Assembly (NCBI GenBank): GCA_023134715.1
Contig: JAGLUP010000008.1
Span: 1 to 6,583 of the forward strand
Origin: Candidatus Parcubacteria bacterium
GTDB lineage: Bacteria; Patescibacteriota; Minisyncoccia; Minisyncoccales; JAGLUP01
Direction: 5' to 3'
DNA length: 6,583 bases
Position 1 is the stretch's first letter; every line of letters begins with the position of its first letter. Position numbers and translations under genes: made by a program. The notes beneath the pieces were generated by a model. The model made no database searches. It had not been told where the DNA came from and was given only the letters and a program-made list of their open reading frames with translations. Of the stretch, positions 71 to 6,583 are shown piece after piece.

Positions 71-94
71 AAAAAAGCTACCCTTGTGGATAGC
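71..94 (-). terminator. Degenerate copy of terminator-like element B
   Basis: The minus strand reads GCTATCC, loop ACAA, GGGTAGC, then TTTTTT (plus-strand A-run 71-76, hairpin 77-94). One arm base differs from the other copies, but in minus-strand RNA the change gives a U-G pair, so a 7-bp stem remains. The flank TTCCCAATTT on the left matches the flank of the other copies. No recognisable element A follows it on the far side. It is the second terminator-like hairpin downstream of the sanA-like gene and could be a backup stop. Function is inferred from the hairpin plus U-tract. Confidence 0.55.
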
Positions 95-133
95 CGAATA
101 TATATTTAGGCAGACAGCCGCAACTCAAACAAA

Positions 134-169
134 CATAACAAATCTCGCCGATCGACCTACTTTGTTACG
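134..169 (-). repeat. Palindromic element A, copy 1
   Basis: This is a 36-nt imperfect palindrome. The left arm is CATAACAAA and the right arm is TTTGTTACG. The core TCTCGCCGATCGACCT is identical in all five copies in the window. The right arm carries C where copies 2, 3 and 5 have T. Read as minus-strand RNA this gives a G-U pair, but as plus-strand RNA an A/C mismatch. It lies between terminator-like hairpins at 186-203 and 77-94, downstream of the sanA-like gene. Function is unknown. Confidence 0.85.
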
Positions 170-179
170 CTCCCCAATC

Positions 180-203
180 AAAAAAGCCATCCTTATGGAT
201 AAC
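180..203 (-). terminator. Intrinsic terminator after the sanA-like gene (element B, copy 1)
   Basis: The minus strand gives GTTATCC, loop ATAA, GGATGGC, followed by TTTTTT. The hairpin starts 5 nt after the TAA stop at 208-210, a normal place for a Rho-independent terminator. Compared with the other copies, two stem pairs are G-U rather than Watson-Crick in minus-strand RNA, so the stem is kept but weaker. The plus strand has no T-run after the stem, so termination should act only on minus-strand transcripts. Confidence 0.75.
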
Positions 204-207
204 TTAT

Positions 208-876
208 TTAATCCCAGCTTTTTTTACTATCCCCTGTAATTGGAATTGGTTCTCCTAAATATTTCGACCCAAGTTGAAGATTAAGTTCGAAAAAACTTTT
301 TATATTTGCTATTTTTTCTCGAAATTCATTATATTGAATGTTTCTATAAGAATGTTTGTCTGCGATAAGACCATAAGCATCAATGCCTAAATTTCTTCCT
401 AAATATACTGCTCTGGGTAAATGAAAATTTTGAGTAATAATAATTAAAGATTCTACTTGGAATATATGTTTAGCTCTAAATAAGCTGTCATAAGTATCAA
501 ACCCAGCATGGTCTAAAAAAATATCTTCTGCTAAAACTCCTTTTTGCAAAAGCCAATTTTTTACTGTATTTACTTCATCATAATCTTTTTTTCCATGATC
601 TCCGCTTATTAAAATTTTCTTTACCTTGCCATTATAATATAGCTCAAGCGCTGTTAAACTTCGGTCTTCAAGCATAGAGCTCATTCTTTCTTGTTTAAAA
701 ACCTTTGCTCCTAAAATTAAAGCTGTTTGAGCTTCGGGGGCATTATTAATATCTGAAAAAATATAAACGGCACTTTGTTCTTTGACGCGCGAGTTTATCA
801 GATAAATTCCCAAAATTAATAAACCAAAGATAATTATGGACGCAATGACAATAATTAATTTTTTCTTAAATTTCAT
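208..876 (-). CDS. sanA: SanA-like DUF218 membrane protein
   Basis: The 222-residue protein has a lysine-rich start (KFKKK) and one hydrophobic segment at about residues 7-27, which predicts an N-terminal anchor with the rest outside the membrane. The DUF218/YdcF-type domain spans about 50-210. Visible SanA-type motifs are ALILGAKV (52-59), MLEDR (68-72), TALELYYNGKVKKILISGD (75-93), YDEVNT (99-104), DHAGFDTYDS (122-131), TQNFHLPRA (148-156) and GIDAYG (164-169). E. coli SanA is linked to envelope barrier function and vancomycin exclusion at high temperature; its biochemical activity is not established. The ATG at 874-876 has no clear Shine-Dalgarno sequence and begins 9 nt after the stop of the DUF1287 gene, so the two are probably co-transcribed. 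A terminator follows directly. Family assignment is strong; the role in this cell is inferred. Confidence 0.87.
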   Translation of the reverse strand: MKFKKKLIIVIASIIIFGLLILGIYLINSRVKEQSAVYIFSDINNAPEAQTALILGAKVFKQERMSSMLEDRSLTALELYYNGKVKKILISGDHGKKDYDEVNTVKNWLLQKGVLAEDIFLDHAGFDTYDSLFRAKHIFQVESLIIITQNFHLPRAVYLGRNLGIDAYGLIADKHSYRNIQYNEFREKIANIKSFFELNLQLGSKYLGEPIPITGDSKKSWD

Positions 877-885
877 AGTTTAATT

Positions 886-1581
886 TTATTTTATTTCAGG
901 AATAGGAAATCTAAAATGGTAAGCAATTGGTGTCGGCCATTTCAGCAAATGATTACTTTCTTGTGTGCCTAAACCATAATTATGAATTACATAAGGAATG
1001 CCGTTTTTTCGCCTTTGATTAGATATTATGCCAATGTGCATTTTTCCTGATGGTAATTTTTCCCAAATCACAATATCCCCTCCCTGCCATTGATATAAAT
1101 TTTCAGTATCCCATGAATTAACTTTAGTTGTTAAAGGCTGGGCATATTTTTGAAAGAATGGAATTAAATTTAATACTCTTCTGAAATCAATATTAGGATC
1201 CGGGTCTCCATTAACGCGCGGATAATAATCAGGGTTTTGTTTAATATCATTATCAAGTATTTCTTTCAAATCAAAGCCGGCATTTTTAAAACTTCGCCAA
1301 ATAACATCAGTGCAAACACCGGTATTTTCTGGAGGATATCCTCCCATATAATATTGGTCTTGATAAAATTTCGTCTGTCCTACTCGTTTTTTTGCTCCTT
1401 CTAAGATATCGTGTAAATCATCTATGCCGTCTTTGTCTTGGTCTGTCTTAAGAAAAAGTTCAGGAACAGTTATCCGTTGAGCAAAAGAATAATAATTAAA
1501 AAACAGCCATAATAAAAAAGCTATAAAAATTAAGCTTAAAATTGAAAATCCAATTATTTTCCAAGAAAAAACCTTTTTCAT
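886..1581 (-). CDS. Membrane-anchored DUF1287 protein with a calcium-loop-like motif
   Basis: The 231-residue protein has a hydrophobic segment at about residues 9-30 after a short basic start, giving a signal anchor or uncleaved signal. Residues 47-55 (DQDKDGIDD) form an acidic DxDxDG loop like those that bind calcium in EF-hand or thrombospondin type 3 repeats. The remainder matches DUF1287 (E. coli YijF family): TGVCTDVIWRSFKNAG (88-102), DPNIDFRRV (128-136), GGDIVIW (167-173), KMHIGIIS (180-187) and VIHNYGLG (198-205). Cys90, His182 and His200 are candidate catalytic residues, because the Cys...His order recalls NlpC/P60-type cysteine hydrolases; that mechanism is inference, since DUF1287 has no settled function. 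It is first in a two-gene unit with the sanA-like gene, suggesting an envelope or cell-wall role. The start is ATG at 1579-1581, with A/T-rich sequence and no Shine-Dalgarno motif upstream. Confidence 0.85.
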   Translation of the reverse strand: MKKVFSWKIIGFSILSLIFIAFLLWLFFNYYSFAQRITVPELFLKTDQDKDGIDDLHDILEGAKKRVGQTKFYQDQYYMGGYPPENTGVCTDVIWRSFKNAGFDLKEILDNDIKQNPDYYPRVNGDPDPNIDFRRVLNLIPFFQKYAQPLTTKVNSWDTENLYQWQGGDIVIWEKLPSGKMHIGIISNQRRKNGIPYVIHNYGLGTQESNHLLKWPTPIAYHFRFPIPEIK

Positions 1582-1600
1582 TTTTTTATAAAAATTAAAA

Positions 1601-1690
1601 TAAAATTAAAATAAAATTAAAAATCCCAAATATAGAATAACATAAAATAATAAACATAACAAATCTCGCCGATCGACCTGATTTGTTATG
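1601..1690 (-). repeat. Extended intergenic repeat, left copy (pairs with 2580-2669)
   Basis: This stretch aligns without gaps to 2580-2669 at a constant offset of 979 bases, with about 10 differences in 90 positions by hand count. It contains element A copy 2 (1655-1690) and a downstream A/T-rich tail that includes ATAGAATAACATAAAA. The shared tail shows that a whole intergenic segment, not just the palindrome, was copied in front of two different genes. Confidence 0.8.
1634..1662 (-). promoter_or_regulatory. Candidate promoter for the DUF1287-sanA unit
   Basis: On the minus strand TTGTTA (1662-1657) and TATTCT (1639-1634) are 17 nt apart, a possible sigma-70 -35/-10 pair. Transcription would start near 1627, leaving a leader of about 45 nt before the ATG at 1581. 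The -35 box lies inside the downstream arm of palindrome A, so folding or protein binding there could affect initiation. The same pair and spacing recur at 2613-2641. The -10 box is only 4/6 to consensus in very A/T-rich DNA, so this is tentative. Confidence 0.35.
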
Positions 1691-1700
1691 TTTCCCAATC

Positions 1701-1724
1701 AAAAAAGCTATCCTTGTGGATAGC
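1701..1724 (-). terminator. Terminator-like element B, copy 2
   Basis: The minus strand reads GCTATCC, loop ACAA, GGATAGC, then TTTTTT: a perfect 7-bp stem with a U-tract. It is the second of two such hairpins downstream of the PaaX-like gene, so it could catch transcripts that pass the first. It lies upstream of the candidate promoter at 1634-1662, which fits insulation of the following unit. Confidence 0.65.
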
Positions 1725-1788
1725 CGCGACCCAAACAAACATAACAAATCTCGCCGATCGACCTACTTTGTTATGCCTCTCCCCAATC

Positions 1789-1812
1789 AAAAAAGCTATC
1801 CTTGTGGATAGC
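1789..1812 (-). terminator. Intrinsic terminator after the PaaX-like gene (element B, copy 3)
   Basis: The minus strand reads GCTATCC, loop ACAA, GGATAGC, then TTTTTT. It is the first terminator-like hairpin met after the TAG stop at 1865-1867; element A copy 4 lies between them, so the hairpin begins about 53 nt past the stop. The stem and U-tract are identical to copy 2. Confidence 0.7.
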
Positions 1813-1864
1813 CGCGACCCAAACAAACATAACAAATCTCGCCGATCGACCTACTTTGTTACGC

Positions 1865-2476
1865 CTATTCTTTTAATAATTCAAGTAGCTTTTCTTCTTT
1901 ATCGGCTTTATCTATAGTAAAAATATGAATATCCTGAAAAAGATTATTATCAATTAGGTCTTGATAAAGATCATCGGGAATTGGATATTTGCCGATATAA
2001 GTACTCTTTTGGAGAGGTTTGAACATTAATAAAGATAATTCTGCTCGAAACCATTCTCTGAAGCGTCTTCTTTTTTCTGGAATATCAAAGACAACCACTC
2101 TTATCTTTTCATCCCACGGCTTATTTAAAATAGAATACCTGTCTTTAATGTATATAATCATTTCTTTTCCTTTGTCTGTAAGCAAAAGTTTTTTATTCTT
2201 TGTTTGTTTTATAAGCCCTTGTTTTTTAAGCCGAGAAATATTTACTCTAATAATTTCTTTTTTAAATTTCTTTTCTGAACTACAGCCAAACATATCTTTC
2301 ATAAGTTTGAATCCGGGATAACAATCAGGCAGCTCTCCTATAAACCCTTTAGTAAAATCCTCGCCAAGATCTTTGATGCCAAACAAAATATAACTTCCAG
2401 CATTTAACCCTTGTTCAAAAAGCCGCTTAGTGAAACTTATTTTTCTTTTTTGAAAAATATATTTTGGATTTTTCAT
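1865..2476 (-). CDS. PaaX-like regulator with Cas2-type C-terminal domain
   Basis: This 203-residue, basic protein has an N-terminal winged-helix-like region at about residues 15-110. It includes KKEIIRVNISRLKKQGLIKQTKNKKLLLTDKGK, the usual 'recognition helix plus wing' pattern of PaaX-type regulators. The C-terminal half begins with KPWDEKIRVVVFDIPEKRRRFREWFR (119-144) and continues to LQKSTYIGKYPI (155-166), a pattern shared by PaaX C-terminal domains and Cas2 ferredoxin folds. Asp131 is at the position of the Cas2 beta-1 aspartate. Proteins of this type in CPR genomes are often labelled Cas2 by homology, yet no cas1 or CRISPR array is present here. DNA-binding regulation is therefore more likely than spacer acquisition. 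The ATG at 2474-2476 lacks a Shine-Dalgarno motif. The TAG stop lies at the edge of a palindrome A copy, which makes the repeat a candidate binding site (inference). Confidence 0.78.
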   Translation of the reverse strand: MKNPKYIFQKRKISFTKRLFEQGLNAGSYILFGIKDLGEDFTKGFIGELPDCYPGFKLMKDMFGCSSEKKFKKEIIRVNISRLKKQGLIKQTKNKKLLLTDKGKEMIIYIKDRYSILNKPWDEKIRVVVFDIPEKRRRFREWFRAELSLLMFKPLQKSTYIGKYPIPDDLYQDLIDNNLFQDIHIFTIDKADKEEKLLELLKE

Positions 2477-2503
2477 TTTTTATAAGAAATAAAATTAAAA
2501 ATT

Positions 2504-2557
2504 AAGAATAAATACAAAAATTCTAATTATAAGAATAAATACAAAAATTCTAATTAA
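2504..2557. repeat. 27-bp tandem duplication upstream of the PaaX-like gene
   Basis: Two adjacent 27-bp units (2504-2530 and 2531-2557) share 26 of 27 bases; each starts AAGAATAAATAC. The sequence is A/T-rich and lies 28-81 bp upstream of the start codon. The junction creates a perfect TATAAT on the minus strand, absent from either unit alone. The duplication probably arose by replication slippage. Confidence 0.85.
2526..2553 (-). promoter_or_regulatory. Candidate promoter for the PaaX-like gene
   Basis: On the minus strand a perfect -10 box TATAAT (2531-2526) lies 16 nt after TTAGAA (2553-2548), a weak -35 box. The expected start near 2519 leaves a leader of about 43 nt to the ATG at 2476. 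The -10 box is made by the junction of the 27-bp tandem units. A/T-rich DNA produces such matches by chance, so confidence is limited; a second candidate lies at 2613-2641. Confidence 0.35.
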
Positions 2558-2579
2558 AAGTAAAAGTTAAAAATTTGAA

Positions 2580-2669
2580 TTAAATTAGAATAAAATTAAA
2601 AACTCTAAGCATAGAATAACATAAAACAATAAACATAACAAATCTCGCCGATCGACCTACTTTGTTATG
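2580..2669 (-). repeat. Extended intergenic repeat, right copy, with element A copy 5
   Basis: This aligns gaplessly with 1601-1690 at about 89% identity by hand count. It holds palindrome A at 2634-2669 (arms CATAACAAA and TTTGTTATG, 9 bp, invariant core). The tail at 2580-2633 repeats the TTGTTA-17 nt-TATTCT pair on the minus strand (2641-2636 and 2618-2613). If that pair is a promoter, the PaaX-like gene would have a leader of about 130 nt. It lies just after the gap terminator in transcription order. Confidence 0.8.
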
Positions 2670-2682
2670 CCTCTCCCCAATC

Positions 2683-2712
2683 AAAAAAGCTATCCACAAG
2701 GATAGCTTTTTT
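2683..2712. terminator. Bidirectional terminator after gap (element B, copy 5)
   Basis: A perfect 7-bp stem GCTATCC/GGATAGC (2689-2706) has AAAAAA on one side and TTTTTT on the other, so either strand gives a hairpin plus U-tract, and on either strand the A/T runs extend the pairing to 13 bp. It begins 8 nt after the gap stop codon. The 4-nt loop is ACAA on the plus strand, whereas copies 0, 2 and 3 have TTGT there. The loop is therefore inverted although the left flank CCAATC is in the usual orientation. Confidence 0.88.
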
Positions 2713-4774: not shown

Positions 4775-6583
4775 TTATGGAATATAATCGCCACTCAAAG
4801 ATAAATTATCTGCATTATCTGCATTTAATGTATAAGGATTATCACAAAATCCATCTGTATTTGAATCAACGCAGTTATCAGAATATCCATTTCCTGAAGG
4901 ATTTGTCCAATAATTACCTCCTATCTCTGGTCCATTTCCGTAGATTCTTGTTCCTGTTTGTTTTGCTATGTTCCAGTGATTCGTATAAATTGTTCCTCCG
5001 AAACCAATATGATTCGTGTTGTTAAATAAGTTGTTATAAATTAAATTTGCACTACTCTCTCCTGCGTTTAAAAGATGCATTGCATAAGATATTCCTGTTC
5101 CTCCTGGTGAACCAGTGCTATATCCCGCAACTCCCCCCATGCCTCCTGCCAAACTAGAAATTATATTACTGGAAAAAGTATCACCATTTGAAGATGACAA
5201 ATAAATCCCTGTTGAAATTCCTCCTGTGCCTCCGTTATAATAAAACCCGCCCGCGCCTCCTGTGCCTCCTGTTAGATTAGAGACTGTATTAGCGGAAAAA
5301 GTATCACCATTTGAAGATGACAAATAAATCCCTGTTGAAATTCCTCCTGTGCCTCCGCCATCATAACATCCGCCCGCGCCTCCTGTGCCTCCTGTTAGAT
5401 TAGAGACTGTATTAGCGGAAAAAGCGTTACTTTCTGAATTTAACAGGTATATACCTGCTGAAATTCCTCCCACGCCTCCTAAAGAACTAAATAATCCGCT
5501 TGATCCAGACATTCCTTCAAAATTAGCTATAATATTATTCTCAACTATTGAATCAGTTATATTAATGAAAGCTAAGCCCGTAGAAATTCCTCCTGTATCA
5601 CCCGAATAAATTGAACCGCCGATTAACATTGGTATTGTGCTGACTTCTATATTAAAATTTGAAATATTTAAATTGGATTGATCGTAAAAGTATAAAATAG
5701 GTTTTCCATCTATTGTATTTAATTTATTGCTGTCTGGAACATTATCAGAACCATAAATTATTGTCAAAGTAACAATATTGTTATATGAATTAATATCAAG
5801 CCATACTCCCGCTGATGCGCCAGGCGAACCATCTGACCCATTACATCCTGTTGCGCCGCCTATTCCGCTTATCAAATTTGATATGCTATTTGAAGTTAAT
5901 GTATTACTATTTGAAAATGACAAATAAATCCCTGTTGAAATTCCTCCTGTGCCTCCTGATCCCTGACCAGTATCAGCCCCTCCTGCGCCTCCTGTTAGAT
6001 TAAAAATTGTATTAGAATGCAAGCTATTGCCCGATGAGGCAGACAAATAAATCCCTGTTGAAATTCCTCCTGTACCCGATGGATCGCCATATTTAGCAAT
6101 TCCTCCTGTGCCTGCTATCAAATCTTTTATGACATTATTAGAAATCGTATTATTTAAAGATTTTGAATAAATTCCTACTGCTGTTCCTCCCAAACCTCCG
6201 GGTTGATCGCTGACCGTAGATCCTCTGGTGCCGTACAAATCCTGAATAGTGTTGCTGTCTATATTTCCGTTATCCGCTCCTGTATCAAAATAAATTCCTG
6301 TTTGCCAATTCGTAATTACGCAATTTTTTATTGTTGTGTTAAGCTGATTTGAATAAATCGCATATTTATTATCTTCGCTTGCTCCGTTTAAATTAAAACT
6401 TCCATTAATTGTATGCCCCTGACAATCAAAAACAATATTTGGCGCGGTTATATCTATGCAATATGAAAATGTTGAATTTACAATATCCGACGTTAATAAA
6501 TAATTTGCTCCTTCTTGATCCAATGTTAAGCAATTAGAAACTTCTATGCCTTCACTCCCTCCTCCATATTCTATCCCTCCTCC
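4775..6583 (-). CDS. Secreted NosD-like beta-helix protein with glycine-rich repeats (5' end outside window)
   Basis: The reading frame stays open to the window edge, giving 602 visible residues; the true start and any signal peptide lie upstream. The TTG at 6521-6523 is not the start, because family-like sequence (SNCLTLDQEGANYLLTSDI) runs through it. The first part (YCIDITAPNIVFDCQGHTI, then NTTIKNCVITNWQTGIYF) is the usual opening of NosD/pectate-lyase-like right-handed parallel beta-helices. The middle holds about nine rungs of the type GGISTGIYLSSSNGDTFSAN, most followed by an insert rich in GG and GGTGG, with a 41-residue period where intact. The end has GGNYWTNPSGNGYSD and DSNTDGFCDNPYTL, a common C-terminal module with an acidic calcium-loop-like motif. 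No catalytic residues stand out, so a surface or adhesive role is likelier than enzymatic activity (inference). Confidence 0.82.
   Translation of the reverse strand, partial: GGGIEYGGGSEGIEVSNCLTLDQEGANYLLTSDIVNSTFSYCIDITAPNIVFDCQGHTINGSFNLNGASEDNKYAIYSNQLNTTIKNCVITNWQTGIYFDTGADNGNIDSNTIQDLYGTRGSTVSDQPGGLGGTAVGIYSKSLNNTISNNVIKDLIAGTGGIAKYGDPSGTGGISTGIYLSASSGNSLHSNTIFNLTGGAGGADTGQGSGGTGGISTGIYLSFSNSNTLTSNSISNLISGIGGATGCNGSDGSPGASAGVWLDINSYNNIVTLTIIYGSDNVPDSNKLNTIDGKPILYFYDQSNLNISNFNIEVSTIPMLIGGSIYSGDTGGISTGLAFINITDSIVENNIIANFEGMSGSSGLFSSLGGVGGISAGIYLLNSESNAFSANTVSNLTGGTGGAGGCYDGGGTGGISTGIYLSSSNGDTFSANTVSNLTGGTGGAGGFYYNGGTGGISTGIYLSSSNGDTFSSNIISSLAGGMGGVAGYSTGSPGGTGISYAMHLLNAGESSANLIYNNLFNNTNHIGFGGTIYTNHWNIAKQTGTRIYGNGPEIGGNYWTNPSGNGYSDNCVDSNTDGFCDNPYTLNADNADNLSLSGDYIP
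5171..5416 (-). repeat. Near-identical 123-bp tandem repeats within the beta-helix gene
   Basis: Units 5171-5293 and 5294-5416 match almost perfectly except for a short segment at about 5235-5248 versus 5358-5371 (the FYYN versus CYDG insert). A third, diverged unit continues from 5417. The same 123-bp spacing occurs between 5919 and 6042, where a segment reading ISTGIYLS on the minus strand recurs. Synonymous sites are conserved too, pointing to recent duplication or gene conversion. Confidence 0.9.

Follow-up and report, generated by a model that had tools for sequence, protein, structure and literature searches.

The stretch of DNA under study (the window) is a complete contig of 6583 bp, C11, from the genome of a Candidatus Parcubacteria bacterium (G000; 761,603 bp in 12 contigs), whose assembly is 90% complete. 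The window carries seven genes, all on the minus strand, coding for DUF218, DUF1287, PaaX_M (Cas2-like), GAPDH, glutaredoxin, thioredoxin-like and NosD-like repeat proteins; no tRNA was found in it. Two short repeats, a palindrome with a CGATCG centre (A) and a terminator-like hairpin (B), occur between these genes, and the analysis concerned the nature of A and its relation to the PaaX_M gene. The features of the window are the following.

134-169, no strand: A palindrome copy 1, centre CGATCG at 149-154, asymmetric halves TCTCGCC / GTAGGTC
1655-1690, no strand: A palindrome copy 2, centre at 1670-1675, halves TCTCGCC / TCAGGTC
1740-1775, no strand: A palindrome copy 3, centre at 1755-1760
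1828-1863, no strand: A palindrome copy 4, centre at 1843-1848, 1 nt beyond the stop codon of the minus-strand Cas2-like gene
2634-2669, no strand: A palindrome copy 5, centre at 2649-2654, lying roughly 158 nt upstream of the Cas2-like gene's start
76-95 (repeat 77-94), minus strand: B hairpin, terminator-like, accompanying A and outside the dispersed family
184-205 (repeat 186-203), minus strand: B hairpin, terminator-like, at the end of the DUF218 gene
1706-1725 (repeat 1707-1724), minus strand: B hairpin, terminator-like
1794-1813 (repeat 1795-1812), minus strand: B hairpin, terminator-like
2681-2714 (repeat 2689-2706), no strand: B hairpin, bidirectional form, directly beyond the stop codon of the GAPDH gene
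1694-1869, no strand: two tandem copies (1694-1781 and 1782-1869) of an 88-bp unit of A plus B, 85/88 identical
1865-2476, minus strand: PaaX_M (PF20803) gene for a 203-aa winged-helix plus Cas2-like protein, the proposed cognate protein of A

The five A and five B copies reported by the original prediction were recovered at these positions, every one between open reading frames (ORFs), and the core of A is unchanged across its five window copies. The window copies of A are not independent, since 1694-1781 and 1782-1869 are a tandem duplication. The proposal that A and B form one two-part element had to be given up, as A is dispersed genome-wide and B is confined to contig C11, with no match at up to three mismatches elsewhere in the host genome. 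The reading of both repeats as minus-strand RNA structures was retained for B, whose terminator-like hairpin points the same way as the minus-strand genes, and abandoned for A. The B hairpins are ordinary terminators serving these genes, and two of them fall, together with A, inside the 88-bp tandem duplication.

A total of 56 intergenic palindromes were found in the host genome, which fall into six families (A, C, D, E, F and G) with CGATCG or CGGCCG as their centre and share a layout of about 36-40 bp, which consists of an outer arm, a variable inner segment of 4-7 nt and the fixed centre. Family A comprises 20 full copies and one cut by a contig end. Its pattern AACAAAn4GnCGATCGnCn4TTTGTT returned 20 exact copies and none with 1-4 mismatches, while permuted palindromic patterns gave no exact copy, showing that A is repeated far beyond chance. 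CGATCG is the most over-represented palindromic hexamer of the genome, and 42 of its 49 occurrences are centres of long palindromes of families A, C and D; the arms of C read GGTTCAA and those of D, which has 11 copies, TATAACACATATA. Families E, F and G are centred on CGGCCG and include one hybrid site joining the left half of F to the right half of G. When the 64 palindromic hexamers were ranked by long palindromic extensions, CGATCG had by far the highest share both in the host and in G049, which represents a different family of the order, with CGGCCG second in the host and third in G049, where sites are few. The D arms were found again in G049 and in a further genome, G025, in both cases around a CGGCCG centre, and other families of the order carry palindromes with the same two centres and different arms. 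The core of A had no match in 146 further genomes of the order, and a GTDB scan gave only two chance matches lacking palindromic arms. A phage origin was discarded, as IMG/VR gave no A sites, a single partial chance match to the D arms and no confirmed PaaX_M relatives. Contig C6 of the host starts within an A palindrome (C6:1-22, L053), so that A-type repeats probably break the assembly. At C9:43600-45560 (L036), A and C palindromes alternate, together with one E, between small ORFs, including two similar 133-aa ORFs, one of which was searched and gave no Pfam match.

The palindromes are tied to genes of the PaaX_M kind. Single genes in the host are often bracketed by pairs of sites of the same family, and three of the genes so placed, the only PaaX_M genes found in this genome, each lie between copies of a family of their own.

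C11:1865-2476: PaaX_M gene bracketed by A
C9:116858-117433: PaaX_M gene bracketed by D
C7:63416-64165: PaaX_M gene bracketed by F

Both PaaX_M genes of G025 are likewise bracketed by matching palindromes, one pair being centred on CCATGG, while one palindrome, upstream, was found at the PaaX_M gene of G004. The G004 protein is 67% identical to that of the window, and its site shares AACAAA..CGATCG..TTTGTT with A. The comparison was extended to 35 PaaX_M loci (the three of the host, three more in G025 and G004, and 29 new ones added by searching the whole order), picked by protein score or genome and not by palindromes at the gene. A pair score of at least 48 was reached at 27/35 PaaX_M loci against 32/1733 other genes (p about 3e-36), and a centre-based statistic gave 20/32 against 5/1733 (p about 4e-34), the control genes being drawn from three genomes and the PaaX_M loci from many. 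An upstream palindrome is usually no more than about 120 nt away from the start codon, and at most bracketed loci a matching palindrome also lies 14-50 nt beyond the stop codon. Some of the unbracketed loci have odd-length centres (L173 and L186, with TTTTTTCACGTGGCGTGAAAAA on both sides) or reach contig ends. The association of palindrome families with PaaX_M genes is therefore established with near certainty, and the literature searched, which did not include bioRxiv, nowhere describes PaaX or Cas2-like genes as bracketed by palindromes.

Other genes also occur between palindromes. In the host, an MNT nucleotidyltransferase and HEPN pair of toxin-antitoxin type lies between two A palindromes (C5:17807-19016, L063) and is possibly passenger cargo. 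In another genome, G045, a family of about 8 copies centred on TACGTA brackets a gene that, judged by eye, looks TrpR-like and is not PaaX_M (C2:119167-119816, L192).

Protein and site vary together. Over 28 loci, protein identity correlated with half-site similarity (Mantel r=0.47, p=0.0002), the outer, inner and central half-site segments each being significant, and mean half-site identity rose from about 0.44 at less than 30% protein identity to 0.66 at more than 60%. All four long-form proteins scored had CGGCCG or CGGTCG centres. The proteins show PF20803 together with a partial winged-helix similarity, and residues F130, D131, P133, E134, R140, R144 and S158 (numbering of the window protein), which include an F-D-x-P-E motif, are invariant or nearly so. 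Cas2 models (TIGR01573 and that of PADLOC) matched several of them; TIGR01573 was above its cut-off in 3/5 proteins tested, with the window protein below it. Similarity to E. coli PaaX (8a39) was detected at E=1.7e-4, and the segment corresponding to the Asp motif is missing from that alignment. TIGR02277 was far below cut-off in 5/5 proteins, and PaaX_C was found in 2/7, only in the long subfamily. PaaX_M genes occur in 96/243 genomes of the order and in 122/379 of the phylum sampled, with up to 13 copies in a single small genome, a few of them interrupted by stops.

The distribution of the sites was then considered. None of the 56 host sites lies inside a called gene, intergenic DNA making up only 14% of the genome. 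The 54 sites with callable context are divided among tandem, divergent and convergent spacers as 41/10/3, against 38.9/10.2/4.9 expected from spacer length; genes were called by a simple ORF method, and these counts are approximate. Sites of different families lie less than 150 bp apart in 8 pairs, where 2.4 were expected and randomisation gave 8 at most. In G045, of which about 86% was covered, two families cognate to PaaX_M genes are present in about 8 to 11 copies apiece, and four palindromes of different kinds stand within 917 bp in one convergent spacer; in congeners this gene pair is separated by a short spacer devoid of palindromes, measuring about 70-172 bp in the two clearest examples. 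In G219 a PaaX_M gene sits inside a 1.8-kb variable region that measures 28-37 bp in G224 and G222; this region also holds other ORFs, and its precise edges could not be drawn.

Taken together, we consider it somewhat better than an even bet that A is one family of dispersed DNA palindromes which are the cognate sites of the bracketed winged-helix plus Cas2-like protein, the protein spreading them. Its parts differ in strength. Cognate binding of the palindrome by the PaaX_M protein is quite probable, whereas mobilisation of the palindromes by the same protein is about evenly balanced. E. coli PaaX binds TGATTC-N27-GAATCA, a palindromic site of 39 bp (PMC9493321), and the palindrome size thus fits a PaaX-type dimer. 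A PaaX_M dimer would bind the palindrome with each winged helix reading one half-site and the Cas2-like core sitting over the CG-NN-CG centre, where the protein might work as a recombinase or nuclease; palindromes would be spread singly, at times along with the bracketed gene, into intergenic DNA, as REPs (repetitive extragenic palindromes) are thought to be spread by RAYT (REP-associated tyrosine) transposases. More tentatively, the protein may be the mobilising enzyme of a non-HUH class of REPtron across Patescibacteria, its Cas2-like core acting at that centre. This class of palindromes in tiny Patescibacteria was not recognised previously and looks like a new kind of self-spreading element, whose movement we infer.

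Several observations weigh against a palindrome-spreading role. In the host, families C, E and G are each without a PaaX_M gene despite the 90% complete assembly, and G049 has palindromes and no PaaX_M gene above cut-off. Known PaaX proteins are repressors. A single-sequence structure model was unusable (pLDDT, a per-residue confidence score, of 36), and the Cas2-like active site is deduced from sequence only. Finally, neither transposition nor a target duplication nor a precise empty site came to light; congeners are only about 70-78% identical, which blurs the boundaries.

The best surviving alternative is that the proteins are PaaX-type transcriptional repressors and the palindromes their operators, one autoregulatory and the rest a regulon. 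The winged-helix domain, the similarity to E. coli PaaX, the binding of a 39-bp palindrome by PaaX to repress its own promoter (PMC9493321) and the usual closeness of the upstream palindrome to the start codon are all in its favour. On the other hand, a matching palindrome also follows the stop codon at most bracketed loci, and the sites show no preference for promoter-bearing spacers; a promoter is not expected in the crowded convergent spacer of G045, which argues against operators as well. The up to 13 paralogues in small genomes, the lack of the PaaX C-terminal domain in most proteins tested and the retention of the Cas2-like Asp motif point the same way, and we regard this explanation as unlikely, at perhaps a chance in four.

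Less probable still is that the palindromes are REPs or miniature inverted-repeat transposable elements moved by another host enzyme, such as an HUH RAYT, a Xer-type recombinase or an unknown transposase, with the PaaX_M genes as passengers or insertion hot spots. Such enzymes are at hand, since RAYT-like Y1_Tnp genes (including L224-L226) are present in 10/10 Patescibacteria genomes tested and the host has two adjacent tyrosine recombinase ORFs, one a weak match, the only ones found in its genome (C5:165890-167645, L019 and L020); the palindrome families devoid of a PaaX_M gene would also agree with it. However, 0/8 Y1_Tnp (HUH) genes from the same genomes are bracketed by palindromes of this class, and inspection of these flanks ruled out an HUH RAYT as the partner. 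No GTAG or CGTC tag, as defined for REP families (PMC3733652), was apparent in the half-site position counts, where the fixed feature is the CG..CG centre and which included no dedicated flank scan, and passengers would leave the sequence covariation between palindrome and PaaX_M unexplained.

It is very improbable that the palindromes are transcribed RNA hairpins, acting as terminators or 3' stabilisers. The arm changes named in the original prediction do become G-U pairs in minus-strand RNA in the window copies, family C is flanked by an A-run and a T-run, and B is terminator-like. Over the 20 full copies of A, however, 38 pair positions are mismatched on both strands, inner positions being so affected in many copies. 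G-U pairs restricted to minus-strand RNA number 35 against 8 restricted to plus-strand RNA, an excess almost wholly due to one asymmetric half-site combination, TCTCGCC / GTAGGTC, repeated by descent, and the copies on contig C5 lean to the plus direction (5 against 2). The same asymmetric orientation of A is found next to genes on the plus strand (C6:166072) and in the gap separating divergent promoters (C8:13607), the hybrid F/G site pairs poorly, and Rfam at gathering score gave no match in the window. Genome-wide, arm changes thus break pairing on both strands and placement is independent of gene orientation, the two observations named in advance as telling against a minus-strand RNA under selection, and A was rejected as an RNA element. 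Coherent variation is seen in a DNA half-site beside the fixed CGATCG centre rather than in an RNA stem. The 13 asymmetric A copies in the host all share the plus orientation; replication polarity was dropped as an explanation, since these copies belong to few independent clusters and contigs are oriented arbitrarily.

That the palindromes organise or mark the chromosome, as sites for a nucleoid protein, methylation or segregation, is hardly credible: the enrichment of CGATCG in palindrome centres would suit it, but several families coexist in a genome, the PaaX_M genes are each tied to their own family and copy number varies strongly between genomes.

Apart from these elements, the NosD-like gene of the window (4775-6523) encodes a right-handed beta-helix protein with repeated units of 123 nt (41 aa) and is open at the contig end.

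If the bracketed genes and their palindromes are palindrome-spreading units, they represent an overlooked class of elements that shapes the intergenic DNA of one of the largest radiations of bacteria and is carried by about a third of the sampled Patescibacteria genomes, in which family models label the genes PaaX or Cas2 by similarity. Cas2-like domains would then have a role in DNA mobility outside CRISPR, and a Cas2-fold transposase or recombinase of this kind would bear on the origin of Cas2. Cognate gene and site are both defined, which makes the claim directly testable.

Among known systems, integron attC sites resemble these palindromes in being spaced about 0.5-1.5 kb apart around single genes, and spacings of 0.5-0.65 kb on contig C9 had suggested integron cassettes. 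This possibility was ruled out, since no recombinase gene lies beside the arrays, the two tyrosine recombinase matches being on contig C5, and the six families of sites keep CGATCG or CGGCCG as their fixed centre. Cas2 and VapD share with the PaaX_M proteins the Cas2-like domain with its conserved Asp motif, whereas here this domain is fused to a winged helix and linked to dispersed palindromes; the gene and repeat annotation of the window shows neither cas1 nor a CRISPR array. PaaX repressors combine a winged helix with a Cas2-like middle domain and use a palindromic site of about 39 bp, but most proteins tested here lack PaaX_C and retain the Asp motif, the gene has sites on either side, the sites are scattered without regard to promoters, and no paa genes stand beside the window gene. 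Membership in the PaaX repressors thus fails on domains (PaaX_C and TIGR02277) and on site placement.

The closest likeness is to the REPtron, a RAYT/TnpA-REP transposase gene flanked by REPs and accompanied by dispersed REPs and mosaics of them known as bacterial interspersed mosaic elements (PMC3733652, PMC2817692, PMC8266576). Both have short extragenic palindromes in several families per genome, with mixed clusters and intergenic placement, and in both the families are tied to the gene between their copies, the dispersed palindromes being of the same type as the flanking ones. They differ in the bracketed protein, winged-helix plus Cas2-like here and an HUH Y1 transposase in the REPtron, and in the site, where a self-complementary CGATCG or CGGCCG centre replaces the unpaired GTAG or CGTC tag of REPs; moreover, the true Y1_Tnp genes of the same genomes are free of flanking palindromes of this class. 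The evidence therefore favours a REPtron-like unit in a new variant, and possibly a categorically new, Cas2-like mobiliser.

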